DNA of 15,015 nucleotides from Candidatus Saccharimonadota bacterium (lineage in GTDB: Bacteria > Patescibacteriota > Saccharimonadia > Saccharimonadales > UBA4665): the NCBI GenBank assembly GCA_028289265.1, contig JAQGGU010000092.1, positions 1 through 15,015 of the forward strand. Direction: 5' to 3'. Under the pieces are notes generated by a model, which saw nothing but the letters and a program-made list of their open reading frames with translations, made no database searches and was not told the DNA's origin. This document shows, one piece after another, positions 3 to 14,797 of this stretch. The position numbers and the translations under genes were made by a program. The stretch's first letter is position 1; each line of letters begins with the position of its first letter.

Positions 3-923
3 AGGCCGGCAGCCGGCGCTAGTGGTGTCGAGGGCGGCGTGGCTAGCCTGGTGCTGCTGAGCGTGGACGCTCCTGGTGCGCGGCGCGAAGCAAAGGTGGC
101 GGAGATAGTGGCCAGCCAAAAAGTATATGAATTTTTGCCAGCCAAAATGACGATCAAGCTGCGCAATGCAGGTAATGTCCACGTGGCGCCGTCAGGCACT
201 ATGTTTATCAAGCAAGGTAGCAAGCAGGTAGGCGCGCTTAACTTTAATGTCGAACGTGGTAATATCCTGCCTGGCACAAACCGGACGTTTGAAATGAGCT
301 GGAATGACGGCTTCCCAGTATTTGAAGAGAAGACCGAGGGAAGTAAAACGACGCGTTCGCTAAAGTGGAACTTGAGTAATTTAGATAAGCTCCGCTTTGG
401 TAGATATACCGCTAACTTAGTCGCAGTATACGACGACGGGCAGCGAGACGTGCCGGTTGAGGCTGTTGTGTCTTTTTGGGTAATCCCTTGGCGTATCCTC
501 GGCGTCCTTCTGCTTATTATACTGCTCGTAGGCTTTGGTACATGGGCGCTGCTGCGTTTCGTATGGAAGAATGTGCGCCGCCAGGTAGCGGCCGTACCAG
601 TGGAATCCGAGCCAGACCCAAGCTCTTTGGCTGCTGCAACAAAGAAGCCTAAGAAGAATCACCGCAATGAACGCCACGAAGAGCTAAAAACTGATGAAAA
701 CAATGAAGATGCATCGCCTGATGCTGCGTACCGCAAGCCAGTTGTAGAAACAGAGCGCCGTAGTTCTCCTGGTCAGCCTGATAGTCAGCAGCCAAGGCAA
801 CAAAAAGCCTCTACGCCCAAGAAATCGCAAAAAGCACTGACAGCCAACGATACTAACCGGCCATCAAAAGCCAAACACAACAAACGCAAGAGAAACCACA
901 AGCAGCGGAGACGCCATGAGTAG
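3..923 (+). CDS. DUF916/DUF3324-like membrane-anchored surface protein, 5'-truncated
   Basis: The reading frame is open to the window edge, so the N-terminus is missing. GTG at 39 is the first start-like codon but is probably internal, because 12 more residues are readable upstream and the homologous neighbour has about 165 residues before this point. Visible are a beta-rich extracytoplasmic domain, a transmembrane helix (about residues 149-172 counted from GTG 39) and a cytoplasmic tail of about 118 residues packed with Lys, Arg, His, Glu and Gln, ending in an extremely basic stretch. The motif NAGNVHVAPSGT (residues 43-54) matches NAGNVHVIPRGT in the next gene, so the two are paralogues. 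DUF916/DUF3324 proteins of Gram-positives are WxL-interacting proteins that bind the wall and partner proteins; membership is inferred from fold pattern and the neighbour. The gene overlaps the next by 8 bp, implying translational coupling. The function of the basic tail is unknown. Confidence 0.8.
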   Translation, partial: RPAAGASGVEGGVASLVLLSVDAPGARREAKVAEIVASQKVYEFLPAKMTIKLRNAGNVHVAPSGTMFIKQGSKQVGALNFNVERGNILPGTNRTFEMSWNDGFPVFEEKTEGSKTTRSLKWNLSNLDKLRFGRYTANLVAVYDDGQRDVPVEAVVSFWVIPWRILGVLLLIILLVGFGTWALLRFVWKNVRRQVAAVPVESEPDPSSLAAATKKPKKNHRNERHEELKTDENNEDASPDAAYRKPVVETERRSSPGQPDSQQPRQQKASTPKKSQKALTANDTNRPSKAKHNKRKRNHKQRRRHE

Positions 924-1920
924 GCAGCTCACCCGACTGGTGGTTGCTCTGTTGGTCGGCGTGTCACTGGCATTATGGATACCGGATAACACGGCTAAGG
1001 CAGCGGCCCCAAAGCGCATAAATGGCATAACCATTTCACCGGCATTCCAGGATATTACATTGAACCCTGAGAAAGCTAGTGAAACTTTCGATGTTGCCGT
1101 GACTAATAACACTAGCGAGCCGCAAGAATTCTCTTTATCGGTAGTAGACTTTGGCAGTTTGGATGAAAGCGGTGGCGTACTTTTTATAGGAGAAACCGAA
1201 AGGAAGTTGAACTATCGCTATGGTCTTTCAGGCTGGGCGACACTAGAGCGCGACCGTATTACTGTTGAGCCTAAGACTACCCAAAAGGTACCTGTTAGCG
1301 TCATTAATAAAGAATCCCTTTCTCCCGGCGGGCACTATGGTGCGGTATTGTTATCACCTGTCGCTTCTGGGGACAGGCCTATTAAGGTCCAGATCAACCA
1401 AGTCATGTCTTCGCTATTGTTCGTCAAAAAGCAGGGCGGTGAAATATATAATTTCGGCATGCGGAGTTTTGAATTTGACCGGAATATCTTCAAAGCACCG
1501 AGCACTGTCGATTTTCGGTTTCAAAATGCCGGTAACGTTCATGTCATACCCCGGGGAACAGTGACTATTACCGATCCGCGCGGCCGGGTAGTAAAGCGGG
1601 GTATCATCAATATGGACTCAGCGATTATACTCCCCGAAACGTTCCGTCATGTACTAACCCAGCTGACCTCGGTCAGTCCCGCCTGGATGCCAGGCAAATA
1701 CCACGCCAGTATTGTCTATCGTTTTGATGGAGAGGACAAGACGGAGCTCCGCGAGGTCAGCTTTATGTATATCAATATTTGGTACCTTATCTTGGCCATT
1801 CTTCTTGTAGCTACTGTAGCTGCCGCGGTGTTACATAAAAAGACGCGAAGTATCATTTTTGCCGGCCTTCGTGCGCCTCTGCGATTAGTGCAAAAAACAG
1901 TCAGAAATATCAAAAAATAA
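916..1920 (+). CDS. DUF916-family (WxL-interacting-protein-like) exported membrane-anchored protein
   Basis: The product has 334 aa. It has a signal peptide (residues 1 to about 30, hydrophobic core 8-21, likely cleavage after AKA or AKAA), then a DUF916-like Ig-type domain (about 36-150). That domain shows the usual order: 'ISPAFQDITLNP', 'VAVTNNTSEPQEFSLSV', a 'ITVEPKTTQKVPVSV' strand and 'LSPGGHYGAVLLSP'. A second Ig-like domain (about 160-285) resembles DUF3324 and carries NAGNVHV. A transmembrane helix (287-307) and a short basic tail follow, so the protein is anchored with its domains outside. The start is supported by GGAG at 907-910, 5 nt before ATG. It overlaps the truncated paralogue upstream and is probably cotranscribed with it. 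In Firmicutes such proteins scaffold WxL proteins on peptidoglycan. No WxL protein is visible here, so the partner may be one of the large surface proteins downstream (inference). It contains no cysteine, unlike those proteins. Confidence 0.85.
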   Translation: MSRQLTRLVVALLVGVSLALWIPDNTAKAAAPKRINGITISPAFQDITLNPEKASETFDVAVTNNTSEPQEFSLSVVDFGSLDESGGVLFIGETERKLNYRYGLSGWATLERDRITVEPKTTQKVPVSVINKESLSPGGHYGAVLLSPVASGDRPIKVQINQVMSSLLFVKKQGGEIYNFGMRSFEFDRNIFKAPSTVDFRFQNAGNVHVIPRGTVTITDPRGRVVKRGIINMDSAIILPETFRHVLTQLTSVSPAWMPGKYHASIVYRFDGEDKTELREVSFMYINIWYLILAILLVATVAAAVLHKKTRSIIFAGLRAPLRLVQKTVRNIKK

Positions 1921-2074: not shown

Positions 2075-4948
2075 ATGAAAAATATAAAATTGCGAGAATT
2101 ATTATCATCCAGGCTGAGGCCTATTGTTGCCGGTGTTGCCGGTCTGATAGCCCTTGCCGTCGTCCTGTCTGTGTCGCTGCAGGCGCAGGCGGCCGTTGGC
2201 ATCAATAAAACAGTCAACTTCCAGGGTAAAGTCGTGAACCTCAACGGCACTAATGTCGCTGATGCCAGTTATTCTTTTCGGTTTCGAATCTACACCGCTG
2301 CTACCGGCGATACGGGAGTCAGCTGTACTGGTGGCTGTAAGTGGGAAGAGACCAAGAGCCTTACCACGGTCAACGGTATATTTCAGACCAACCTCGGCAG
2401 CGTGACGCCCTTTACAAGTGCAGTCGACTTCAACTCTGACAGCCTATACGTCGGCGTGCTATTTAATGGTGATAGCGAGATGACCCCACGTATCCGTCTG
2501 ACAGCCGTCCCCTATGCTTTTAATGCTGACAAGCTTGGCGGTTTGGATAGCTCAGCGTTCGCGCAGCTATCTCCTGGTGCACAGCAGACTGGTTTTTTAA
2601 ACGTTAGCGGCAACATTACCTCTGGCGGTATTATGTTTGCGAACACCCTGGATAGCGCTTCAGCTGGTGTACTCAACGTCGGATCACTTAACACTACCGG
2701 TATTAACCTCAATCAAAGTACTACCATAGCATTCGCGAAGTCACTGACGTTTACTGGCGGCGCCAGCAATTTCGACCAGTCGGCAAGTACTGGTACGTTC
2801 AAGACTGGTACGGGAGCCATAGCACTCAATGGCGACACGACTATAGCTGCCAGCAAGACGTTCACTGCTAATGGTATTTCGCTCATAAAAACCGACGCGA
2901 GCAATGCTTTCCAGGTCCAAGGCACCGGGGGTTATAACATATTGGGTGTTGATACGAATAGTGGGCGCGTAGGTATTGCGACCGGTTCTACGGCCCCTGC
3001 TTATACGCTTGATGTAAATGGAGATACCGGCATCAGCGGTAATCTGTACATGGGGTATGGGACTACCCGCACTATCACCGTGGCGTCAAATCCTGGCGGG
3101 GTGGGCAATACTTTGGCTCTTAAGGGCGGAGACGCAGGTTCGGGTAATAGCAATGGCGGTAATATCCAACTTACGGGCGGCCTTGGTAGTGGTACTGGCG
3201 CCCGCGGTATTGTGCTTCTTGATACTCCGGCCTTTACTACTACATCGAATGACGGTAACTGTTTTACCGGTGGTAACATGGTAAATGCCAGTTGTACTAT
3301 CTCGGCAGTTTCTGTCAATAATACGTCAGCCATCATCGTAGGCTTTACCTCATCTGCGAATAATCCGACTGCTACTTTGCCCGATCCGGCCAATACGACA
3401 CCAGGCCGTATTCTGTATGTGACGGGAGCCAATGGTACTAAAGACTTCACCTTGATCGTCAACGGTGGTGGCGTAGGTAACCAAATTGCTATGCGGCAAA
3501 ATACCTCAGCTACAATGATCTGGAACGGTGCTGATTGGACCGCCGCAGGCGCCAGTAGCTCGACAACACTACAGGCCGCTTACGACAACACCTTGGCTTC
3601 AGCCGGTGGTGCCGAGATTATTCTGAATAACACGGCGACTTCAAACGGCTTGACTATCCGTAACGCTCAGACTAACCCCGTTACGGGAAGCGTCTTTGAA
3701 GTTCAATCTTCTATTGGCACCAACTACCTCTCAGTTAATAGCAACGCTATCGAATATGTTACGAACGGTGGTGCTGAGTCGAACAATACCTATAGCTCGG
3801 AGTGGGTGTCGATAGGTGCCGGTACTGTCAACCGGTATACGACGACTACTACGAATATAGCTACTGGGCAGGCATCAACAGAAGTGAATACGGCTGCTGC
3901 TATTGGCGCGGGCGTAAGAGTCAAGATTGCTCCAGCACTGAGTACTACTCCGACGCAGTACCAAGTTTCCTTCACTGGCAGGGCGGTCACTGGTTTTTCT
4001 GGCCTCTCAGTCAGTTATACTCCCGACGGTGGCAGTACAGTCATACCTTGTAGCTCGTATAGTACGCAGGCGCTCACCAATACTGGGTGGTCAAAGGTGA
4101 CGTGCGTGTTCACTACTACCAGCGCGGCGGCAGGAAGTCCTTTCCTACAGATTACTCAAAGCGATGCTACTGCCCGCACCTTCTACGTTGATAACGCGAG
4201 TGTGACGCAAAGCACTATTACCTCAGCTCCGCCAAACGTCCAAATCGGTGGCGGTAGCTTCGGTGGTACAGTAACGCTCTTCACGCTTGATAAATCATCC
4301 AGCCCCCCAGTAGCGGCTGGCAACGATGTCTACTATGGATCTATGTATTACGACACTACCAGTGGACGTATCCAGTGCTATCAGGCGAATGGCTGGGGTG
4401 CATGTGGTTCGGCGCCTGACACCTTCGTCAACCTCACTCCCGAATACGCTGGTGCTGTCCTGAACGGCACGGGTGTCGGTACCATGACAGCCGACTTTTG
4501 CTCCAACCAATCCAGCGTGCTGGCAGTCAACACCGCTCTCTGCGGTACCGGCCAGGCATTGAACTTCTATAAATGGACTTCTCCGCAGGCTACGCAGCAG
4601 ACATACAGCATCTACATTGCGTATCAGCTGCCAGGTGGATTTAAGAGCTTCCAGAGTAACTCGACTGTTCAGCTTACGGCCCGGACTGACAACACTACCA
4701 CCGGTTCGGTTACCTATGAAATGTTCAGGAGTCAGGCAGGGGCGGTGACCGCTTGTGGTACGGAAACCACTATTACAACCGCTGTTAATACCTGGCAGAC
4801 TGTCGGTATAAACGGTAATGAATCTGACGGCTGTGGCTTTAACAGTGCATCCGCGAACAACTTTGCGATTTTCAAAATTAATGTGAAAGCGAGAAGTAAC
4901 GCCAATGTTTACGTTGGCGCTCTCAGCTTCACTATAGTTAACCAGTAG
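2075..4948 (+). CDS. Large exported beta-rich fibre-like surface protein
   Basis: The product has 957 aa. A signal or anchor segment (hydrophobic core about 17-38, ending QAQAA) is followed by a module (about 44-160) running from 'NFQGKVVN' through 'SFRFRIYTA' and 'NGIFQTNLGSV' to 'TPRIRLTAVPYAFNADKLGG'. I recognise this architecture from CPR surface proteins and tail-fibre-like proteins. Residues 170-390 are low-complexity beta repeats rich in Ser, Thr, Gly and Asn, including 'GRVGIATGSTAPAYTLDVNG' as in fibre head domains. A segment 'TTLQAAYDN...GLTIRNAQ' (498-530) precedes a jelly-roll, carbohydrate-binding-like region (about 565-712) and a C-terminal beta domain (about 720-957). Its 12 cysteines fall in close pairs (84/88, 396/407, 659/677, 768/777, 809/823, 894/920), suggesting disulfides outside the cell. 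ATG 2075 is the first start after an in-frame stop at 2057-2059. AAGGG abuts it directly, too close for a normal Shine-Dalgarno. It lies 5 bp before the kelch gene. The ligand is unknown; adhesion is an inference. Confidence 0.82.
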   Translation: MKNIKLRELLSSRLRPIVAGVAGLIALAVVLSVSLQAQAAVGINKTVNFQGKVVNLNGTNVADASYSFRFRIYTAATGDTGVSCTGGCKWEETKSLTTVNGIFQTNLGSVTPFTSAVDFNSDSLYVGVLFNGDSEMTPRIRLTAVPYAFNADKLGGLDSSAFAQLSPGAQQTGFLNVSGNITSGGIMFANTLDSASAGVLNVGSLNTTGINLNQSTTIAFAKSLTFTGGASNFDQSASTGTFKTGTGAIALNGDTTIAASKTFTANGISLIKTDASNAFQVQGTGGYNILGVDTNSGRVGIATGSTAPAYTLDVNGDTGISGNLYMGYGTTRTITVASNPGGVGNTLALKGGDAGSGNSNGGNIQLTGGLGSGTGARGIVLLDTPAFTTTSNDGNCFTGGNMVNASCTISAVSVNNTSAIIVGFTSSANNPTATLPDPANTTPGRILYVTGANGTKDFTLIVNGGGVGNQIAMRQNTSATMIWNGADWTAAGASSSTTLQAAYDNTLASAGGAEIILNNTATSNGLTIRNAQTNPVTGSVFEVQSSIGTNYLSVNSNAIEYVTNGGAESNNTYSSEWVSIGAGTVNRYTTTTTNIATGQASTEVNTAAAIGAGVRVKIAPALSTTPTQYQVSFTGRAVTGFSGLSVSYTPDGGSTVIPCSSYSTQALTNTGWSKVTCVFTTTSAAAGSPFLQITQSDATARTFYVDNASVTQSTITSAPPNVQIGGGSFGGTVTLFTLDKSSSPPVAAGNDVYYGSMYYDTTSGRIQCYQANGWGACGSAPDTFVNLTPEYAGAVLNGTGVGTMTADFCSNQSSVLAVNTALCGTGQALNFYKWTSPQATQQTYSIYIAYQLPGGFKSFQSNSTVQLTARTDNTTTGSVTYEMFRSQAGAVTACGTETTITTAVNTWQTVGINGNESDGCGFNSASANNFAIFKINVKARSNANVYVGALSFTIVNQ

Positions 4949-4953
4949 TCGAG

Positions 4954-7900
4954 ATGTATATGCAGCGTAAAATCATCCAATTCAAGAAAATAGTAGGCAG
5001 TCTAAGACAAAAGCTTGTTAGCTCCTCTCTTGCACGGGACTTCCGGACCAGTAAGCTACGCCGCGCCTATGCCATGATGTTCTTTGTGCTTTTTGCCGTC
5101 TCTACGCTGACGGCGGCTCTGCAGCCATTCATTTCCCAGGAGCCGTATCGTCTGGATGTAAAAGCGCGAAATGTCCTGCCCGAATCGAACCCAAAGCTCG
5201 CCGAGGTATTGAAATATGACGCAAAGAAGGCAAGCTTTGAATACAACGAGGGTTACACCGGCCGATCCAACCCTGAGAGCGACATGGATTCGAGTGCATC
5301 ACCACGGTTCAGTGCTTCATTCAGTGTGGACCCGACAAAAGGGGTAGTAGTAAATGATCCGCTTAGTGAAGTGAATGTCACTATGAAGCCAAAGTTCGGC
5401 CTGGGTCAAGGCAAACAAGAAGGTAACCAAGTGTTGTATCCACTTATCGGTGTCAAGGGCTACCTGGTGTATACCGCCCGTGTTAGCAGTGTCAAAGAGG
5501 ATATATTGCTTAGTGAATATAGCAAAGATTCGCTGAGTTACGAGTATGAACTGGGACTTGAAGCAGGCCTCGAAGCCCGGTTGGAGAAAAATGGCTCCAT
5601 AGGCATCTATGGTACCGACCTTCCCCTTATGGGCGGTGTCTCAACTGGTACAGACAAAGACAAGGAACTGCTGGATAAGGCACGTAAAAACGCCAAGAAA
5701 ACCAAACTCATGTTTTCTATTCCAGCGCCAGTTGTCGTCGAGACAGACAAATCAGTCTCACAGGTGAAGGCGCATTTTGAACTGGATGGAAATAAAGTGA
5801 CATTGGTAGCAGAAAATTTGAAGGGCGCATCGTATCCGCTGAGTATTGACCCAAGCGTGTACATCGAGACCGCCCAGAAGCTCATGAGGGGCAACAGTGA
5901 AACCAATATCGACTTCGACGTCAGTAACGAACTTATCCAAAAAGGTAAGTTGAGCGGCGGACGTTTTGATAACTGGACAAATACCATGGTATTACCCGCC
6001 TCCCGCTGGGGACATACTACTGCTGTAGCTGGCGGTTACATTTACGTGGTAGGGGGCATGGACTCAAGCAATACCCGGTCAGGTGCAGTTTATTGGGCGA
6101 AATTCAATGAAACTACGGGGGCTATTGAGGCGCCGAACCCCGGTAATGGTGCCTGCGCAAACTGGTGTACGAATGCCGCCTATAACTTGCCGGTAGCGCT
6201 CAATGCTCATGCAATGGTCGCCTACAACGGCTTCCTCTATGTCCTTGGCGGCGAATCGGCAGCGGGAAGGGTCAATACGGTGTATGTTGCGAAGATTGGT
6301 GCCAACGGCGAACCCAGTCTATGGCACCCCACAGATACAGACTCGAACAACTGGCAATACTGGAACAGTTCGACCTTGTCCAATGAGCGCAGTTACGCCA
6401 GTGCGGTTGCGTACAATAACCGTTTGTATCTCACGGGTGGGCGCACAAATGCGGCGGCAGGTGGTGTAAATACAGTAGAGATGGCAGATATCACTCCTAC
6501 CGGTATGCTCGGCGGCTGGACGACATCCGGCATGTCAAATATTCCGTCTGTTCGGCATATGCACAACGCACTTGTCTATAATGACCGGTTATATGTACTT
6601 GGCGGTAATAGTGGCGGTGTTGTGCAGAGCAGTGTGCAGTATATACGTATTGCGAACGACGGATCATTAGCAGGTTCATGGGTTACCACCACGCCGATGG
6701 GATCTCCACGACTGTCGCAGGGCGGAAATTTTGCAACTATTTGGGGTGGATACATCTATGTGGCGGGTGGCTGTAGTGCCGTTGCCGGAGCAGGCGACTA
6801 CTGTTCGGTTACGGGGCTTTCGAACGCCCGTGACATTCAAATCGCGAGCATAAATGCCGATGGAAGCATTGCCGACTGGAATAACATCATTGGTATTAGT
6901 AGTCCGCGTATGGGATATGGTTTTGTCGCGTGGCGCCAGAACATATATGGCATCGGTGGTTGCACGGCTCAAAATGAAACCACAGGGATATGTACTACGG
7001 CGGCGCAGCTTACGAACATTGGAGATATCAATCCCGATGGAGATGTCAGTACTGTCAACAACTCGGAGCCCGCCAATGCCTCGAGTACTACTTGTGTTGG
7101 AGCTAATCCAACGAACTGCGACCTTCCTGACGCCGGAGATAATGCAGGGCTTAGTGGCCGAATGTCGATGGGAGTGGTCATAAACAACGGCTTTATATAT
7201 GTGATTGGCGGCTGTGTGGATGTTACTCAAACGACCACCCCAGAGTGTAGCTCGGGTCTGCAGATGAGCGGCAATATATCGTACGCGACCCTAGCCGTTG
7301 ATGGAACCATCGTGAGGGCAACATGTACCTCCCCTAATGTCTATGGTACAAATACCGTTGGCGGCGTTACTACGGCCGGTACTTGGTGTGTGGATAGCAC
7401 CAATAGGGTCAATGGTACGACAGGGGTGGGGGCCATGGCTACCGCCGTGTTCAATAATGTCATGTATACGATCGGAGGGTTTGATGGTGACACGGAAGTC
7501 GGCAGCGTTTTCCGGGTTGGCCTCAATGATAACGGTTCGCTGACGGGCGCATGGACTGCGACGACATTTGCCACCGCCGCACTAGGTACCGCCCGGGCAT
7601 ATTCGTATGCGTTTACCCGGGCAAACCCCTCCTCGGCTGGAACGAACCCCGGTAACTTATACGTCATCGGCGGTTGTTACAATGCAAATACGACAAGTGG
7701 TATCGGCTGTACCAACTACGAGACGACGGTGTATAAGTGCAATATCACGACTGCGGCTGCCATAGCTGGCTGCACTACCACCGGACAACAGCAATTAGAC
7801 GCCCAGCCTGCGCAGGCGGGTGCCCAAGGTCTAGGCTTGATGGCAGGAGTGGTATATGCGAACTACATATATCTAGTAGGAGGTTCTAGTGTCACAGTGA

Positions 7901-9798
7901 CCGGTGGTCCTCCTCAAGCGGAACGCGGGGAGATAATGTATGCCAAGATTAACGATTCCAATAACATTGTTAACGCTGTCACTGGAACCGCAAACGCTAC
8001 GGGAGATGTATGGCAAACCTCACCAAACAAGCTAGAACCTGTTCGTCGCCGAGGTTTCGCATTTGGCTACAATGGATATCTGTATTCACTAGCCGGCTAT
8101 AGCGGTTCGCTAAACCTGAACGACCTCTTGTATGCAAAGATAGATGTTAGTAATGGCAGCATTAGTCCCTTTACTACCTCGTTCGTTACAGTAAACCCCC
8201 GCTGGGACCTGAAGGCGATTGTGGCCAACGGTTATGTCTACGCTATCGGTGGATGTAGCTCAGGTGCGGCGCCGAGTTGCGATACTATGACCGGAGCCGT
8301 ACAAACCTTCCAGCTATATAACAACTATAGTGGCTCGCCAGCTGGTTACTCTGCGACGAACACCTTCGGCCAGGACCGCATAGGTGGTAGCGCAACAGTG
8401 CTTAATGGGTATATATATTATGCCGGAGGTTGTACGACAACGGCTTGTACCACTACGACTAATAATGTCTACTACGCGCCGTTAAACCCCGATGGAACGA
8501 TCGGCGCGTGGACGGCTTCACCCAACAGCCTGCCAACTACACTGGCGTGGGGTAAGCTGGTTGCGGCCGCGGGGACACTCTATTATGTCGGCGGCCAGAC
8601 TGGCGCAGCTACTACGACTGCCGTGGCGACCGTCTATTATAGTACGCCAAGCAGTGGAGTTCCGGCCGCATGGGTGGCCGCATCGAATGGTTTACCATCT
8701 CAGCGTACTGAAATCGGAGCTGCCGTGTGGAACGATCGCATCTATGTCACAGGCGGAGTTAATAATGCCGCGACGCCTGCACGTCAAAATACTGTGTATG
8801 CCAGTCCTCAGCTTACGCCAGGCACGAATAGTATTACTTCCGCATGGGTATCGACAAATGGTTTCAATGTGGCCCGCAGCGCACAAGTAACGATAGCGTA
8901 CGCCAACAACCTGTACATATTTGGCGGCTGGGACGGCACAAACTACTTTAATGATGTCCAGTTTACGCAGATAAATAGCGACGGTACCGTCGATGCCGGC
9001 TGGCACTATACTACCAGTTTGCCGCAGCGAATCATGGGGGGTGACGGCTTTGCGGCCAACGGCTATATGTATATATTTGGTGGTCGGTCGGCCGCTGCAG
9101 CTGCCACGACATGTACGAATAACACATACATTACACCGATAAGCGCGAACACGACGATAGTGACTGGCAACAATCCTACAGGTATAGGTGAGTGGTCACA
9201 AACAAACGTCGAGTATGCCGAGGGGCGTTATGGTGTCGCTGCGGCATATGACCAAGGGAAGGCGTATGTGCTTGGTGGTGGGTGTACAGCACCAGTAGCA
9301 GCTGCTAATAGGGGGTTCCTCACGGCTTTGCAAGCCCAACCTCAAGTAGCAAAGTATTCACGCATGATCGATACTGACACCGATGTGTTCCCGACGAAGT
9401 GGCTTATGAACGGTCTCGATAACTCCATCGGAGCCCGCTGGCAATTGAAATATCGCAGCATGACCAACCCGCTCAATACCGACCCTGCGACCATGTGTGC
9501 TTCGGCGGCTATGTCTACCTGGGGGCAGGAAACTAACTATGGTACAGTCAACTTAGGTACGCCCGACAACTACATTCCTAAAGACGGGGCGGGTACTAAT
9601 ACCAACTGTGCCCGCTACTTCTATCTCAGTGTATCCATCGATAGCTCGCAGGCTTTCGGTTACCCGGAAGATGTGGAGCGTGGCCCAACTATCAATGACA
9701 TTTCACTGTTCTTTACCTCCGACCCGAGCAGGCGCCTCCGCCATGGCAAGACCTTCACCGGAGGTCTGCTCCAGCCCCTCGACACCCCGTTCCCATAA
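4954..9798 (+). CDS. Giant kelch-repeat surface protein with RHS-like N-terminal domain
   Basis: The product has 1614 aa. A basic cytoplasmic start (1-37) and one hydrophobic segment (about 38-60) form an anchor or long signal. Residues about 65-305 form a domain with 'VKEDILLSEY', 'LGLEAGLEARLEKNGSIGIYG', 'FSIPAPVVVETD' and 'YPLSIDPSV', the pattern of the domain preceding RHS/YD-type surface proteins. Residues about 350-1450 hold 18 kelch-like units of the form 'hydrophobic-YNGxLYVxGG', followed by a variable loop and 'DGSIxxW', which predict one or more beta-propellers. The remainder (about 1465-1614) is a beta domain with 'GARWQLKYRS' and a tail with RLRHGKTFTGG. Of its 24 cysteines none lies before residue 400, and many sit as pairs right after the blade GG. 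ATG 4954 (or ATG 4960, two codons on) follows the previous stop by 5 bp, with only weak Shine-Dalgarno. It is probably cotranscribed and assembled with the fibre protein. Binding to a host or neighbouring-cell ligand is plausible but unproven. Confidence 0.85.
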   Translation: MYMQRKIIQFKKIVGSLRQKLVSSSLARDFRTSKLRRAYAMMFFVLFAVSTLTAALQPFISQEPYRLDVKARNVLPESNPKLAEVLKYDAKKASFEYNEGYTGRSNPESDMDSSASPRFSASFSVDPTKGVVVNDPLSEVNVTMKPKFGLGQGKQEGNQVLYPLIGVKGYLVYTARVSSVKEDILLSEYSKDSLSYEYELGLEAGLEARLEKNGSIGIYGTDLPLMGGVSTGTDKDKELLDKARKNAKKTKLMFSIPAPVVVETDKSVSQVKAHFELDGNKVTLVAENLKGASYPLSIDPSVYIETAQKLMRGNSETNIDFDVSNELIQKGKLSGGRFDNWTNTMVLPASRWGHTTAVAGGYIYVVGGMDSSNTRSGAVYWAKFNETTGAIEAPNPGNGACANWCTNAAYNLPVALNAHAMVAYNGFLYVLGGESAAGRVNTVYVAKIGANGEPSLWHPTDTDSNNWQYWNSSTLSNERSYASAVAYNNRLYLTGGRTNAAAGGVNTVEMADITPTGMLGGWTTSGMSNIPSVRHMHNALVYNDRLYVLGGNSGGVVQSSVQYIRIANDGSLAGSWVTTTPMGSPRLSQGGNFATIWGGYIYVAGGCSAVAGAGDYCSVTGLSNARDIQIASINADGSIADWNNIIGISSPRMGYGFVAWRQNIYGIGGCTAQNETTGICTTAAQLTNIGDINPDGDVSTVNNSEPANASSTTCVGANPTNCDLPDAGDNAGLSGRMSMGVVINNGFIYVIGGCVDVTQTTTPECSSGLQMSGNISYATLAVDGTIVRATCTSPNVYGTNTVGGVTTAGTWCVDSTNRVNGTTGVGAMATAVFNNVMYTIGGFDGDTEVGSVFRVGLNDNGSLTGAWTATTFATAALGTARAYSYAFTRANPSSAGTNPGNLYVIGGCYNANTTSGIGCTNYETTVYKCNITTAAAIAGCTTTGQQQLDAQPAQAGAQGLGLMAGVVYANYIYLVGGSSVTVTGGPPQAERGEIMYAKINDSNNIVNAVTGTANATGDVWQTSPNKLEPVRRRGFAFGYNGYLYSLAGYSGSLNLNDLLYAKIDVSNGSISPFTTSFVTVNPRWDLKAIVANGYVYAIGGCSSGAAPSCDTMTGAVQTFQLYNNYSGSPAGYSATNTFGQDRIGGSATVLNGYIYYAGGCTTTACTTTTNNVYYAPLNPDGTIGAWTASPNSLPTTLAWGKLVAAAGTLYYVGGQTGAATTTAVATVYYSTPSSGVPAAWVAASNGLPSQRTEIGAAVWNDRIYVTGGVNNAATPARQNTVYASPQLTPGTNSITSAWVSTNGFNVARSAQVTIAYANNLYIFGGWDGTNYFNDVQFTQINSDGTVDAGWHYTTSLPQRIMGGDGFAANGYMYIFGGRSAAAAATTCTNNTYITPISANTTIVTGNNPTGIGEWSQTNVEYAEGRYGVAAAYDQGKAYVLGGGCTAPVAAANRGFLTALQAQPQVAKYSRMIDTDTDVFPTKWLMNGLDNSIGARWQLKYRSMTNPLNTDPATMCASAAMSTWGQETNYGTVNLGTPDNYIPKDGAGTNTNCARYFYLSVSIDSSQAFGYPEDVERGPTINDISLFFTSDPSRRLRHGKTFTGGLLQPLDTPFP
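6001..9303 (+). repeat. Array of 18 kelch-like protein repeats inside the giant surface gene
   Basis: Counted by the diagnostic Gly-Gly (Ala-Gly in unit 11), units lie at residues 367, 432, 495, 550, 605, 668, 752, 841, 906, 976, 1047, 1099, 1158, 1213, 1267, 1324, 1376 and 1441. Spacing is 52-71 residues except two long steps of 84 and 89 around units 6 to 8, where inserts rich in Thr, Asn and paired Cys occur. The repeats are diverged at DNA level and no exact tandem repeat is visible, so this is an old protein-level array. Eighteen units could fold as three six-bladed propellers, or as other combinations. Confidence 0.8.
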
Positions 9799-9815
9799 CG
9801 CCGTTACCTTGTATA

Positions 9816-9820
9816 GAGGG
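9816..9820 (+). promoter_or_regulatory. Shine-Dalgarno-like GAGGG deciding the start at 9829
   Basis: GAGGG ends 8 nt before ATG 9829, which is good spacing and favours that start. The competing ATG 9847 has a weaker GGAAG (9839-9843) only 3 nt upstream. Its product would start MAEGKKR, similar to the MAKSKK start chosen for the next gene, so the choice is not final. Confidence 0.4.
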
Positions 9821-9828
9821 CGACGCTT

Positions 9829-10602
9829 ATGCTAAGCTGGAAGTATATGGCGGAGGGTAAAAAGCGGACAGCCGTAAAAGCACGTAAGGCGAGTACACAA
9901 GCTTCTAAAGGCGCGCGCAGGCGTCAGCGCACCGGAAGCGCTGTTCCGCGTCGCAATGAAACCAAGGCTTATGGTAGCCGTACAATTACCAAGACCTCTG
10001 GGCAGGGTTTATCTATCACTATTCAGGTACCACCTCTTCGCCGCCCAAAGGGTGGCGCGATTGACAAGAAGGCTACTGCTACAATCTCTCTCAAACAGCG
10101 TCTTTTGCGTCCTATCATGCTGGCACCAATACTAGCGATCGTGGCGGTGATAGGTATTGTCGGTATCCCCGGTAAGGATGCAAATAAGCAACCCGACATC
10201 AAAGCGGCGGCCACCGAAAGAACCAAACCGGACTTCCAGCCTCTAGTGCCGTCCGCCGAGAAGGCCAGCGCCACCCGATATGACGGCAAGCGCAATATGG
10301 TTACCTACACGACAACTTTTAGCGGTATACGTATCACGGTGAGTCAGCAAGGGTTGCCGGATAGTTTCAAGAAGGATCCTGCGGCAATGCTCAAGGCTGC
10401 TGATAGTATTAAGGCTAATCAGCGCATAGAAACAGATCGTGGCGCATTATCCATCGCTACCAATGAGGGTGGCGACCAGATGGCCGTATTTGCCGATGAG
10501 CACGTCCTGCTATTTATCCATGCTGCCACAAAGCTCGACGATGTATCATGGAAATCATTTATTGAGCTCCTTGACGCGAAATCATGGGAGGATTTGATCT
10601 AA
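9829..10602 (+). CDS. Bitopic membrane protein with polybasic N-terminus and conserved-looking CPR outer domain
   Basis: The product has 257 aa (251 if ATG 9847 is used). Residues 1 to about 90 are cytoplasmic by the positive-inside rule, disordered and rich in Lys, Arg, Ala and Ser. A single transmembrane helix spans about 93-114. An outer domain (about 130-257) carries 'YTTTFSGIRITVSQQGLPDSFKK', 'ALSIATNEGGDQMAVFADEHVLLFI' and 'WKSFIELL'. The 'ITVSQQxLPxxF' motif resembles hypothetical proteins I associate with Saccharibacteria; this is recollection, not a search. No enzyme motif is evident. It begins 30 bp after the kelch gene and ends 8 bp before the next bitopic protein, which has the same layout, so the two may act together as an envelope complex. 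Function unknown. Confidence 0.75.
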   Translation: MLSWKYMAEGKKRTAVKARKASTQASKGARRRQRTGSAVPRRNETKAYGSRTITKTSGQGLSITIQVPPLRRPKGGAIDKKATATISLKQRLLRPIMLAPILAIVAVIGIVGIPGKDANKQPDIKAAATERTKPDFQPLVPSAEKASATRYDGKRNMVTYTTTFSGIRITVSQQGLPDSFKKDPAAMLKAADSIKANQRIETDRGALSIATNEGGDQMAVFADEHVLLFIHAATKLDDVSWKSFIELLDAKSWEDLI

Positions 10603-10610
10603 AAATAATT

Positions 10611-11684
10611 ATGGCGAAATCAAAGAAAACACCAGTACGGAAATCAACAACCCGACCTAAGAATAAGACGGCGCATAAGCCGAAGGGAAGCGGTATCGCT
10701 AAAAAAGTTGCGGCTGCTACGCCCAAGCTGGCCAAGCCAAATCTTCAGCCTGCCAGGATTATTAGAAGGCCGGATCATCCGCCGTTAGAGGAGTCTAACC
10801 ATAATGTTCCGGTGTCCCCGCTAGAAGCGCCAAATAATTCTCAGACCCACGTCGAAGAGGCGCCAGCAAAGGAGCAAACAACTAAAGTTGCTATGCCCGT
10901 GGAACCGGTAGTTGAAGAAGTTCCTAAAAAAGAGGCAGAACCACCTAAGGAGTCTAATAAACCGGCTGAAACCCAACTGGCGGAGGATAAAATTATTTCT
11001 GCCGAACCACTTGAGTCCTCAATTAGTTCTGCCGAAAATCCCTCCCAGGCAAATTCTATTCAGCGGCCACATTCAGTGAAGAAACTGCGCCGCCGATTGG
11101 CGCGACGAGTGCTTGTCGCCGTTTCCATACTAGTCCTGCTCGGTGTAAGCGGGGTAGTTATCTTCCACCGCTCATCACCTAATCAAGATGAGGCCACTAG
11201 ACAGTTGGTCGCCGAGGTGAGCAAGCGGGTAGTAGTACCGAGCGATGAGACTCCCACCGTCACTACGGTGGTTGATGAGACTCAGATCAGCCAGGATTTT
11301 TTGAGAGGTACTAAAAAGGGTGACAAAGTGTTGCTCTATTTCCAGGCTGGACGGGCAGTGGTCTACCGGCCAACTTCAGACCAGGTAGTCAACATGGGTC
11401 CTATTGAGACGCCGAAGCCACGCGTGTTTCTTCGTAGCGGATCCTCTGCCGACAAAGTTACTGCCATGGCGGACAAACTTAGCAAGTCGCCGGATTTCTT
11501 GCTTGTCTCGCGTGACGCTTCCCCGAAACCGTCTTATGAAAAAACCACTGTCATCGACGTTACCGGCGTACGCCCTGACGTCGCTGCAAAGCTAGCGACA
11601 TATCTTGGCGCTACCGTCGGCACCCTCCCTGATGGCGAGAGTAAACCTGACGCCGATTTACTGGTAATCGTAGGCCGTGATTAG
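10611..11684 (+). CDS. Bitopic membrane protein with basic/Pro-rich N-terminus and LytR_C-like C-terminus
   Basis: The product has 357 aa from ATG 10611. An in-frame ATG at 10584 would add nine residues (MGGFDLKII), overlap the previous gene by 19 bp and lacks a ribosome-binding site. The MAKSKK start mirrors the neighbour's MAEGKK, so 10611 is preferred. Residues 1 to about 155 are disordered: first Lys-rich, then Glu/Pro-rich with 'EEVPKKEAEPPKE'. A transmembrane helix lies at about 164-186. The outer part has a region (about 212-266) with 'PTVTTVVDETQISQDF' and 'KKGDKVLLYFQAGRAVVYRP', a pattern I recall from CPR envelope proteins. The end, 'TTVIDVTGVRPDVAAKLATY' to 'DADLLVIVGRD', fits the LytR_C domain found at the end of some LytR-CpsA-Psr proteins. 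The phosphotransferase domain of that family is absent, so this is not such an enzyme. Role in the envelope inferred. Confidence 0.75.
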   Translation: MAKSKKTPVRKSTTRPKNKTAHKPKGSGIAKKVAAATPKLAKPNLQPARIIRRPDHPPLEESNHNVPVSPLEAPNNSQTHVEEAPAKEQTTKVAMPVEPVVEEVPKKEAEPPKESNKPAETQLAEDKIISAEPLESSISSAENPSQANSIQRPHSVKKLRRRLARRVLVAVSILVLLGVSGVVIFHRSSPNQDEATRQLVAEVSKRVVVPSDETPTVTTVVDETQISQDFLRGTKKGDKVLLYFQAGRAVVYRPTSDQVVNMGPIETPKPRVFLRSGSSADKVTAMADKLSKSPDFLLVSRDASPKPSYEKTTVIDVTGVRPDVAAKLATYLGATVGTLPDGESKPDADLLVIVGRD

Positions 11685-11703
11685 ACAGGCCAATAATCTA
11701 ATC
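11679..11703. repeat. 7-bp inverted repeat across the stop codon and upstream of the ATPase promoter
   Basis: GATTAGA (11679-11685) and TCTAATC (11697-11703) are perfect inverted copies separated by 11 bp. The left arm contains the upstream gene's TAG stop. The pair occupies the space where a -35 element for the next promoter would lie. AT-rich arms and the lack of a T-tract argue against a terminator; an operator is possible. Confidence 0.35.
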
Positions 11704-11709
11704 CGCATA

Positions 11710-11718
11710 TGGTAAAAT
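11710..11718 (+). promoter_or_regulatory. Extended -10 element immediately before the FtsA/PilM-like gene
   Basis: TGGTAAAAT reads as TGn plus TAAAAT, five of six matches to TATAAT. No -35 is recognisable 16-18 bp upstream, which extended -10 promoters can tolerate. Transcription from it would start about 7 bp downstream, near 11725, i.e. at or next to the A of ATG 11726, giving a leaderless or nearly leaderless mRNA. The only Shine-Dalgarno-like sequence (TAAGG, 11718-11722) is 3 nt from the ATG, too close to work normally. Confidence 0.45.
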
Positions 11719-11725
11719 AAGGCAT

Positions 11726-13075
11726 ATGCTTGATCTCCAAAAGTTGAAGGGTCTTAGCGCTACCGTCGCCCAAAAAGCCAAAGAGGGCGCCCAGAAGGCG
11801 TCATCCAGGGTCAAAGAAAAGGCTGCGAACACCGACAGTTCCGGTGACCAGTACATCGTAGCGCTCGATATTGGTACGGAGTACGTGAAGGCGCTTATCG
11901 GCCGAGTCGATTCCGATGGTACTCGAATGGAAGTCATCGGCGTTGGCCGTGAAAAACAGGCACTGACAGATATGCAAGCTGGTGCAATCGCAGACATACC
12001 AAGTGTTGTCCAGAATTGTGACAGGGCGCTCAGTACTGCTGAGAGCCAGGCCGGGGTCAGTGTGCGCAGTGCCGTCATTGGTATCGCTGGTGAGCTGGTC
12101 AAAGGAACAACTACTACTGTTAAAATAACGCGCAAGCAGTCAGATAAACCTCTGGATACAGCTGAAATGGAAAAAATTATCCGCCTCGTGCAGGATAGGG
12201 CCGGCCTGCGCGCCCGCAAGCAGCTTGCTTGGGAGCTTGGTGGTAAAGAACTTGAGATACGGCTGGTTAACAGCGCATTAGTGAGCATCGAGATCGACGG
12301 CTATCCTGTCACAAACCCTATAGGCTTCCAGGGGCGTGATGTCGTCGTTCAGTTGTACACTGCCTACGCCCCGTTGATCCACATCGGTGCTCTTGAGCGT
12401 ACCGCCCAGGAGCTCGATCTTGATCTGCTGGCTGTCGCTGCAGAGCCTTTTGCTGTCGCCCGGTCAGTTATCGGTGATACCAACAATTCAGCGTTCAGCG
12501 CTATCCTTATGGATGTCGGTGGCGGTACAACAGATATCGCCGTAATCAATGACGGCGGCGTCCAAGGTACGAAGATGTTTGGTATTGGCGGCCGCGCGTA
12601 CACCCGGGGCGTAGAGCGTGACCTTGGTATCGAGTATGACCTCGCTGAAAAGCTTAAAGTCAGTCTGGCGCACAACACCGTGCCGGCACTGCAGGCTAAG
12701 CAAGTAAACGCCGCGCTCCAGAAGACCCTTGGAGTATGGACAAGCGGCGTAGGGCTGGCGCTCGGCGAATTCCCGCAGCTCGACCACTTACCGCATCGTA
12801 TCCTTCTCTGTGGCGGCGGCAGTAGCCTTGATATGCTCATGTATAGTTTGCAGCAAACAAACTGGTACAGCGGCCTGCCATTTACTCGCAAGCCAATAGT
12901 CCAGCACATCAAGCCAGGCCAGGTGGTTGGTATTACCGACACCACCGGACAAGTGAGCGATCACACGTTCATTACCGCAATGGGACTACTCAGAGTGGGG
13001 CTCGATACGCTACACTATGCAGGGACATCAGGCGGCTCGATTAAAGAAAAACTGGACAAACTACTACAAACTTAA
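11726..13075 (+). CDS. FtsA/PilM-family actin-like ATPase
   Basis: The product has 449 aa. The actin/Hsp70-fold motifs are present in order: phosphate 1 'ALDIGTEYVKALIG' (46-59), a 1C/SHS2-type insertion (about 80-190), phosphate 2 'LMDVGGGTTDIAV' (261-273) and the adenosine motif 'ILLCGGGSSL' (359-368). FtsA links FtsZ to the membrane in division; PilM is the cytoplasmic actin-like part of type IV pilus machines. Length, DVGGGTTDIAV and a short C-terminal amphipathic segment (438-449: Ile439, Leu443, Leu446, Leu447 on one face) favour FtsA, whose C-terminal helix binds membrane. Neither ftsZ nor pilN/pilO is adjacent, so the assignment stays open. An unusual 40-residue Lys/Ala-rich N-terminal extension precedes the ATPase core. 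The next gene starts 6 bp after the stop and encodes a membrane protein that could be its partner. An extended -10 element lies just upstream. Confidence 0.85.
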   Translation: MLDLQKLKGLSATVAQKAKEGAQKASSRVKEKAANTDSSGDQYIVALDIGTEYVKALIGRVDSDGTRMEVIGVGREKQALTDMQAGAIADIPSVVQNCDRALSTAESQAGVSVRSAVIGIAGELVKGTTTTVKITRKQSDKPLDTAEMEKIIRLVQDRAGLRARKQLAWELGGKELEIRLVNSALVSIEIDGYPVTNPIGFQGRDVVVQLYTAYAPLIHIGALERTAQELDLDLLAVAAEPFAVARSVIGDTNNSAFSAILMDVGGGTTDIAVINDGGVQGTKMFGIGGRAYTRGVERDLGIEYDLAEKLKVSLAHNTVPALQAKQVNAALQKTLGVWTSGVGLALGEFPQLDHLPHRILLCGGGSSLDMLMYSLQQTNWYSGLPFTRKPIVQHIKPGQVVGITDTTGQVSDHTFITAMGLLRVGLDTLHYAGTSGGSIKEKLDKLLQT

Positions 13076-13081
13076 AATATT

Positions 13082-14797
13082 ATGCCAACAAATCAAAAAG
13101 ACACCATTTATATAGACATCGATGACGAAATAACCGCCATCATAGATAAAGTACGAAGCTCTGAGCAGCGTATCGTTGCGTTGGTGCTGCCTAAACGTGC
13201 GACGGTGCTGCAGAGTATCGTCAATATGAAGCTTCTCAAGAAGACGGCCGAAAATGCTAAGAAACACGTCGTCCTTATCACCAGTGAGGCAGGCTTGCTG
13301 CCGTTGGCTGGTGCCGTTGGTATCCACGTGGCGCCAAGTTTGCAGTCCAGGCCAATGATACCGAACGCGCCAGGAGGCATGGCTGCAGGTCCAGTTGTCG
13401 ACGAGTCTCTGGATTTTGATCCTGATGCTGTGAGCACCAAGCCGGTAGGAGAGCTGGCAGGACCCGCTGCGATGATGGCTGATGATCTAGAAACTATAGA
13501 ACTTGATAATGAAGAACCTGGTACTGCCAGTGTCTCGCCGCTGCCTGCAGTAGCCGCCGCGGCAGCTGGTAAGAAAGTCAAAAAAGATAGCAAACTCAAG
13601 ATTCCTGACTTTAACAAATTCCGCCTTTGGCTTGTTCTTGGAGGCGTGGCTTTAGTCGCGCTTATTATATTTGGTTATTTTGCTACGGCGGTACTTCCAA
13701 AGGCGACGGTGACGATAGCGACAGATAGCAGTGACATCGATACTAACGCCAACATTACGCTCGACCCTAAAGTCACCGAAATGGACACCGAAGAGCGCGT
13801 ACTCCCAGCCAAGATTGAGCAAAAGCAACAATCCGGTTCCCAGCAAGCAGCCACCACCGGACAGAAGAACAAAGGCGCTAAGGCGAGCGGCACAGTGACG
13901 CTAAGCTTGAAGGATTGCTCGGTCGACGAGGCGACTATTCCGGCGGGTACTGGCGTCAGTTCGGGTGGCAAGACATTTATCACGCAGTCTAGTGCGACAC
14001 TGGAGAGCGTCAAAGTTGGCTCAAAATGTTCCAATAGTAGTTTTAAGGATGTTTCAACTGAGGAAGTTGATGTTATTGCGCAAACTCCGGGGGCGGCATA
14101 TAACATTGCTGCCAGTTCATTTGCGGTAGCCGGTTTTACGGTGGTTACTGGTCAATCGTCCGATGCAATGACGGGCGGAACGGATAATATCGTTAAAGTA
14201 GTGGCACAATCAGATGTCGACAACGTTAAGCAGAAGATTTCTGCTCAGGACAGCTCTGGTGCCCGAAGTGAATTAAAACAGAAACTGGAAAGTGCGGGCT
14301 ACACAGCGGTGACCAGCAGTTTGCAGGTTAGTGATCCAGTGGTAACACCGAGTGCAGCAGTGGGTGATGAAGCCGATACGGTGACAGTCACTTCTGCGGT
14401 AACATACACGATGTATGGTGCCAAGAAGAGCGATCTGGAAGATTTTATCAAAGAAAACGTCAAGAATAAGATTGATACCCGCAAACAGCAGATATTGAAC
14501 CTCGGCGTCGATAAGGCTTCGTTCGACGTAAATTCGCCAGCCTCCAGCGGCCAGCTGCAAGTCGCTCTTTCAGCTACTACACTTGCTGGTCCGGACATCA
14601 ACACGGACGATCTTAAGCGCCAGATTGCCGGCAAGAAGACAAACGATGTACGTACTGTAGCCAAGGCAACTCCCGGGGTGACCGATGTATCCGTCAAGTA
14701 CAGCCCATTCTGGGTATCGAAAGTGCCGAAAAAAGAAAGTAAGATCACAGTAGTGATTGAAAAAACTGCCGCAACCGCTCATGGAAACCAACCCTAA
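13082..14797 (+). CDS. Membrane protein with alpha/beta N-terminal domain and baseplate-J-like outer domain
   Basis: The product has 571 aa. Residues 1 to about 90 form an alternating helix/strand domain ('RIVALVLPKRATVLQSIVNM', 'HVVLITSEAGLLPLAGAVGI'), cytoplasmic and Rossmann-like in pattern, with no clear catalytic motif. A Pro/Ala/Asp-rich linker (90-175) leads to a transmembrane helix (about 181-201). Outside, residues about 205-360 resemble baseplate J/gp47-type domains ('GTVTLSLKDCS', 'TIPAGTGVSSGGKTFIT', 'VDVIAQTPGAAYNIAASSF'). Residues about 370-571 are a further mixed domain ending 'YSPFWVSKVPKKESKITVVIEK'. CPR genomes often carry such proteins labelled baseplate J-like although no phage is involved. 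Two outer cysteines (279, 316) could pair. It sits 6 bp after the FtsA/PilM-like gene with no obvious Shine-Dalgarno, and overlaps ruvX by 17 bp. It is probably an envelope partner of that ATPase; no phage genes are nearby, so a true tail baseplate is unlikely. Confidence 0.8.
   Translation: MPTNQKDTIYIDIDDEITAIIDKVRSSEQRIVALVLPKRATVLQSIVNMKLLKKTAENAKKHVVLITSEAGLLPLAGAVGIHVAPSLQSRPMIPNAPGGMAAGPVVDESLDFDPDAVSTKPVGELAGPAAMMADDLETIELDNEEPGTASVSPLPAVAAAAAGKKVKKDSKLKIPDFNKFRLWLVLGGVALVALIIFGYFATAVLPKATVTIATDSSDIDTNANITLDPKVTEMDTEERVLPAKIEQKQQSGSQQAATTGQKNKGAKASGTVTLSLKDCSVDEATIPAGTGVSSGGKTFITQSSATLESVKVGSKCSNSSFKDVSTEEVDVIAQTPGAAYNIAASSFAVAGFTVVTGQSSDAMTGGTDNIVKVVAQSDVDNVKQKISAQDSSGARSELKQKLESAGYTAVTSSLQVSDPVVTPSAAVGDEADTVTVTSAVTYTMYGAKKSDLEDFIKENVKNKIDTRKQQILNLGVDKASFDVNSPASSGQLQVALSATTLAGPDINTDDLKRQIAGKKTNDVRTVAKATPGVTDVSVKYSPFWVSKVPKKESKITVVIEKTAATAHGNQP

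Follow-up and report, generated by a model that had tools for sequence, protein, structure and literature searches.

A conserved operon of Saccharibacteria encoding a fibre-like protein, a kelch giant and a bitopic protein, a candidate surface adhesion complex

What do two very long beta proteins encoded side by side in a Saccharibacteria genome do? We addressed this question in contig JAQGGU010000092.1 of a Candidatus Saccharimonadota bacterium (assembly GCA_028289265.1). The window, as we call the stretch analysed, is one entire contig (C24, 15,015 bases) of an 896-kb, 83%-complete genome. The initial annotation had described adjacent genes 5 base pairs apart, encoding proteins of 957 and 1,614 amino acids, and had proposed that the locus builds a contact or attachment structure. 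The gene pair is as described: the fibre-like protein FIB is encoded at 2075-4948 and the kelch protein KEL at 4954-9798, and both proteins have a hydrophobic N-terminal segment. No promoter signal supports the single promoter that had been placed in front of them. Our main finding is that the genes for FIB, KEL and the bitopic protein B257 form a conserved operon whose products are probably surface-exposed. The features of the three proteins, with model confidence as predicted local distance difference test (pLDDT) values, are as follows.

2075..4948, plus strand: FIB, fibre-like protein with a signal-like start, 957 residues
2207..2500, plus strand: N-terminal beta domain (head) of FIB, residues 45-142, remotely homologous to the N-terminal domain of the mosaic adhesive trimer (MAT) fibres of Bdellovibrio (NF053851 match; pLDDT blocks of about 67-93)
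3737..4216, plus strand: carbohydrate-binding-module-like (CBM-like) jelly roll of FIB, residues 555-714
4415..4945, plus strand: conserved C-terminal beta-sandwich of FIB, residues 781-957 (alignment A4, 23 rows, and model)
4954..9798, plus strand: KEL, 1,614 residues, with a signal-anchor-like start, an N-terminal domain, three kelch propellers, a C-terminal beta-sandwich and a tail
8329..9342, plus strand: third propeller of KEL, residues 1126-1463, six kelch motifs
9718..9795, plus strand: C-terminal tail of KEL, residues 1589-1614, a candidate docking motif (conservation, pLDDT and distribution)
9829..10602, plus strand: B257, bitopic protein whose extracytoplasmic domain is conserved

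Do these genes travel together? We examined 93 loci (the window, L033-L055 and L077-L145) and counted a KEL as full-length when both of its terminal profiles scored at least 150 bits, which gave 35 distinct KELs (18 from the window and the G-numbered genomes, 17 from named records). Of these 35, 30 are immediately preceded by FIB on the same strand, and 30 are immediately followed by B257. All but one of the 30 preceding fibres (29 of 30) have the FIB C-terminal domain. Side by side in the order FIB, KEL, B257, the genes recur in many genomes from several families of the class. Among 147 class genomes, strong matches were found to the FIB C-terminus in 27, to B257 in 28 and to the KEL C-terminus in 16, with cut-offs chosen after seeing gaps in the lists (E ≤ 5.6e-70, ≤ 2.7e-53 and ≤ 7.6e-45, respectively); at E ≤ 0.001 the counts were 50, 55 and 25. 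Strong matches to both FIB and B257 are common to 26 genomes (Fisher 1.9e-25, a P value that ignores relatedness), and the KEL carriers have B257 in 16 of 16 cases and FIB in 15 of 16. The exceptions to the pairing of FIB with B257 are G019, which has FIB and only a weak B257-like match, G141, which has B257 without FIB, and a third genome whose upstream part is not available. The initial annotation had named co-occurrence at chance level as grounds for refuting its proposal; this did not hold, as all three genes co-occur. In a sample of 145 genomes from the phylum, FIB had matches at E ≤ 0.001 in 14; three of these were below 1e-100, all from this class, and the remainder were 5e-15 or worse. 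In its strong form, FIB seems restricted to this class.

Nine FIB carriers have no KEL match at all, and in these FIB is followed directly by B257 (L115-L123). Because these nine genomes keep FIB beside B257, we regard FIB and B257 as the core of the unit and KEL as its usual third part. B257 is the most constant partner of FIB. In a tree of FIB C-terminal domains, rooted at the midpoint with no outgroup, the nine KEL-less genomes make up one side of a branch (support 96/88; 94% of bootstrap trees), and KEL is present to either side of this root (families f1, f2, f4, f10, f16 and f20). The simplest reading of this tree is that an ancestral FIB-KEL-B257 unit lost KEL once, provided that the midpoint root is right. 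The window FIB clusters with f16 and f4 fibres (L040 and L042) and not with the f1 fibres L047 and L048, which may reflect gene transfer or old paralogues. In L115 the FIB-B257 pair (3270-7276, 9740-13604) is next to ATP synthase genes of opposite orientation, and by eye the other eight KEL-less loci have similar neighbours.

What kind of protein is FIB? Its single-chain model (65 alignment rows, mean pLDDT 71.4) is confident for the head at residues 45-142, a domain at about 390-495 and beta-sandwiches at about 560-712 and 781-957. Residues 496-554 and 715-780 are conserved yet have low pLDDT in this model, which would be consistent with chains able to fold only within a trimer. The aligned last 257 residues contain six invariant cysteines, four of them within the C-terminal beta-sandwich (A4), and the middle or stalk varies between relatives. 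The head sits where a MAT head is expected, directly behind the signal-like start. Taken alone, it matches the NCBIfam model of the MAT N-terminal domain, NF053851, over residues 33-112 (E 2.6e-9, 37.1 bits), a significant match that lies under the curated cut-off; with the whole of FIB the match has an E value of 4.7e-5. NF053851 matches 13 of 22 FIB heads at E ≤ 0.01, and at E ≤ 0.001 the domain is found in 24 of the 147 class genomes and in none of 14 controls from elsewhere in the comparison. The sole frame above the curated 60 bits is in G080 (62.6 with its neighbours), and it is 42% identical to FIB residues 17-229. In the jelly-roll region, a fold search found a CBM-like fold, and the carbohydrate-binding domain PF02018 is present in 81 of 120 FIB relatives among the matches listed. 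The rows shown in the fold searches were filled by the CBM region for FIB and by the third propeller for KEL, so that the remaining domains were barely probed. FIB is a probable sugar-binding surface fibre.

The initial annotation had read KEL as an 18-blade kelch protein. KEL does contain 18 kelch motifs; these are best read as three six-bladed propellers and not as one 18-blade unit, with repeated motifs forming closed propellers as in other kelch-propeller proteins. The C-terminal tail is conserved, with a mean of 0.88 versus 0.70 across residues 720-1614, and the block 1590-1604 tops all blocks at 0.93; its full length is modelled with pLDDT below 50. C-terminal conservation of FIB and KEL is favoured in these comparisons because the relatives in alignments A7 and A8 were found via C-terminal parts. 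We considered the tail as a general sorting signal and found this unsupported: 33 rows matched at E ≤ 0.001, all but one inside KEL-matched frames, the lone exception being a 45-residue frame where a contig begins. No relative turned up when named genomes were scanned with KEL in its entirety; the KEL C-terminal alignment found 38 loci. Frames of 10,914 and 25,790 residues in two relatives suggested a giant gene; we dropped this reading because both frames run through stretches of N, and in one of these two genomes the absence of FIB is not assessable. The window's own genome has more KEL relatives, on contigs C42 and C97 (L053 6041-10159; L054 5950-7104), and the C97 copy adjoins ParA and ParB genes. 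In L034 (5815-11476), from a Lac Pavin assembly, and likewise in L111, KEL is spread over two frames that overlap, either a sequencing error or a true two-piece gene. PDB sequence searches with FIB and with alignments of the FIB C-terminus, FIB head, B257, KEL C-terminus and KEL N-terminus gave nothing convincing, which does not make the folds new.

B257 has one membrane segment and a conserved extracytoplasmic domain (alignment A3, 26 rows). No precomputed Pfam domain is present in the best 120 of 297 B257 relatives; B257 is a new bitopic partner whose family has no Pfam name. In several carriers one or two small proteins of about 163-195 residues converge on B257 from the other side (L036 13280-14429; L041 15494-16525; L115 13611-14198), and the two that were scanned had no Pfam match. 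Many loci have UP, WxLIP-like and Ig/PKD-like (HTG) proteins upstream of FIB. The window has the following two.

3-923, plus strand: WxLIP-like fragment, a partial relative of the 916-1920 protein
916..1920, plus strand: WxLIP-like (DUF916-like) protein, 334 residues (PF06030 and FixG_C scores, hydropathy)

By hydropathy, the 334-residue protein has a hydrophobic start and a C-terminal membrane segment at residues 288-306. Its scores for PF06030 (WxLIP_PGBD; 20.7 bits) and for the Ig-like FixG_C (20.3 bits) are under the respective cut-offs of 27.3 and 25.6.

How might these proteins work together? We consider it probable that FIB, KEL and B257 form one membrane-held, surface-exposed, glycan-binding adhesion complex. 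In such a complex FIB and KEL would be exported and FIB would trimerise. The operon partners would hold the FIB head at the cell surface: KEL, B257 and, in loci that have them, the WxLIP-like proteins, for which peptidoglycan binding is possible. The KEL tail would dock onto one of the other proteins, for example B257 or the fibre. Glycans or proteins of a second cell or of some other surface would be bound by the FIB jelly roll, the KEL propellers or both. The combination of a MAT-like head, a CBM-like fold and PF02018 in relatives fits adhesion. The contact structure proposed in the initial annotation is in keeping with these features and with the co-occurrence; that the complex would lie at the surface we infer from sequence, and a host bacterium is a plausible target, the least certain part of the proposal. 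A narrower version is that the unit is a contact apparatus specific to Saccharibacteria, with a Bdellovibrio-type fibre head for which KEL, through its docking tail, and B257 are the receptor at the cell surface. We hold this version only tentatively and think it more doubtful than not.

Several observations weigh against an adhesion complex of these three proteins. Among the full-length KELs, 5 of 35 lack FIB directly upstream and 5 of 35 lack B257 directly downstream; in L047, L081 and L099 the absent neighbour is found at a distance of one or more genes. In L124, L125, L126, L131, L132 and L139, KEL is of a second kind, not immediately preceded by a fibre gene on its own strand. Most class genomes have no strong matches (27 or 28 of 147 do), and many carriers match by construction, having supplied rows of the search alignments. 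The window FIB falls short of the NF053851 curated cut-off (37.1 versus 60 bits), and 9 of 22 FIB heads have no match to it. A Pfam scan of the window FIB found no CBM; the CBM assignment rests on the model and on the relatives, and a CBM fold by itself does not prove glycan binding.

Downstream of B257, the window contains the following genes.

10584-11684, plus strand: B366
11726-13075, plus strand: FtsA/PilM-like ATPase
13082-14797, plus strand: 571-residue protein
14757-, plus strand: start of RuvX

The C-terminal stretch of B366 is weakly like the end of a 544-residue protein in L048 (25.5% identity, 34 bits). A 561-residue protein in L054, placed similarly to B366, is a LytR-CpsA-Psr wall-polymer protein with LytR_C. 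The 571-residue protein, which lies 3' of the FtsA/PilM-like gene both here and in L033, has a membrane segment at about residues 182-200; scans against Pfam and NCBIfam gave no match for this protein at E ≤ 0.1. The FtsA/PilM-like ATPase is a second actin-like protein that is almost universal in Saccharibacteria; it differs from the product of the FtsA-like gene of contig C95, to which it is 26% identical.

Could the unit serve a purpose other than adhesion? KEL might be a PilY1-like tip or priming protein of a type IV pilus, with the FtsA/PilM-like gene downstream of it, at 11726, marking a pilus locus; the TM7x pilin PilX2 also bears a beta-propeller (PMC12206443). However, the FtsA/PilM-like gene is matched in all 147 class genomes and adjoins the unit in only 2 of the 16 KEL carriers (G000 and G094), lying about 9 kb from B257 in G012 and on another contig or more than 100 kb off in 13. 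Therefore, this gene belongs to a separate module outside the unit. Pfam/NCBIfam-type scans of the window FIB, KEL and B257 matched no pilus family, and the unit lacks the linkage to pilus assembly genes that a PilY1-like protein would have. A pilus accessory role is very unlikely. Still less credible is a prophage remnant in which FIB is a phage tail fibre: the partners have membrane segments, the gene order is conserved across several families of the class, and FIB, KEL, B257 and WxLIP matched 0 PHROGs families at E ≤ 0.001, a screen that did not extend to neighbours in other loci. Searches of phage and defence families likewise gave no match.

Two further explanations keep the complex at the surface. 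The FIB binding module could keep environmental polysaccharide near the cell for feeding, rather than attach the cell to anything. The CBM-like fold agrees with this, and the Foldseek rows include a Bacteroides surface glycan-binding protein (7kwb), with a low TM-score. However, no enzyme or transporter was identified in the unit, where only part of the neighbouring genes is annotated, and the MAT-like head points to a fibre. We consider feeding unlikely. The unit could instead be an S-layer-like or wall-linked scaffold that stabilises a monoderm surface without a specific ligand, and the WxLIP-like proteins upstream (below Pfam cut-offs) and the LytR-CpsA-Psr wall-polymer gene close to a KEL paralogue agree with this. 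The patchy distribution, varied fibre middles and CBM fold fit recognition better than general structure, and we judge a pure scaffold improbable.

An adhesion complex would bear on how ultrasmall Patescibacteria recognise and hold other cells, a question for which present knowledge is drawn from cultured strains and points to type IV pili and certain essential surface proteins (PMC10633639, PMC12206443). In Southlakia epibionticum, essential envelope proteins have VCBS, dockerin and fibronectin III domains, and they are speculated to target host glycans for adhesion or degradation (PMC10633639); pili in host contact are discussed elsewhere (PMC11665869, PMC12592800). The parts of these four papers that we drew on do not mention the FIB-KEL-B257 unit. 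Nor did we find it described in titles and abstract starts of the open-access literature, a search outside which most subscription papers and bioRxiv preprints fall. For Saccharibacteria known from metagenomes (37 of the 38 record titles from the KEL C-terminal scan begin with MAG), the unit supplies well-defined components that lend themselves to testing.

How does the unit compare with known systems? Unlike kelch propeller proteins of the KEAP1/KLHL type, KEL has three propellers per chain, a hydrophobic N-terminal segment and its own N-terminal domain, C-terminal sandwich and tail. As in the WxL/WxLIP (DUF916) complexes of Gram-positive bacteria, a WxLIP_PGBD-like protein with a membrane segment is present, here upstream of FIB; unlike in those systems, its score is under the cut-off, and no WxL-domain protein was reported in the nine window frames scanned. 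KEL shares with PilX2/PilY1 of TM7x the use of a beta-propeller as a candidate adhesin in Saccharibacteria (PMC12206443), but the PilX2 propeller is RCC1-type, seven-bladed and carried on a pilin, whereas KEL has three kelch propellers and no recurrent pilus linkage. FIB also resembles the chimeric MAT fibres of Bdellovibrio, all 21 of which have a beta-rich domain of about 130 residues directly behind the signal peptide (PMC10769870). Both have a signal-like start followed by a beta-rich head, whose homology is detected in the window FIB by a match under the curated cut-off, a mosaic middle and a glycan-binding-type module, and the unit would tie surface fibres of Saccharibacteria to prey-recognition fibres of Bdellovibrio. 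The surface element bound by the MAT N-terminal domain was left unidentified in that study (PMC10769870); B257 and the KEL tail are candidates for the part that anchors the base of such a fibre, and, if the receptor version is true, KEL and B257 would be the missing partner of the head, and epibionts and predators would have a homologous recognition fibre in common. Unlike MAT fibres, with their variable adhesive C-terminal tip, FIB combines a CBM-like module and a varying middle with a constant C-terminal domain, which recurs in 29 of 30 KEL-adjacent fibres, and with fixed operon partners.
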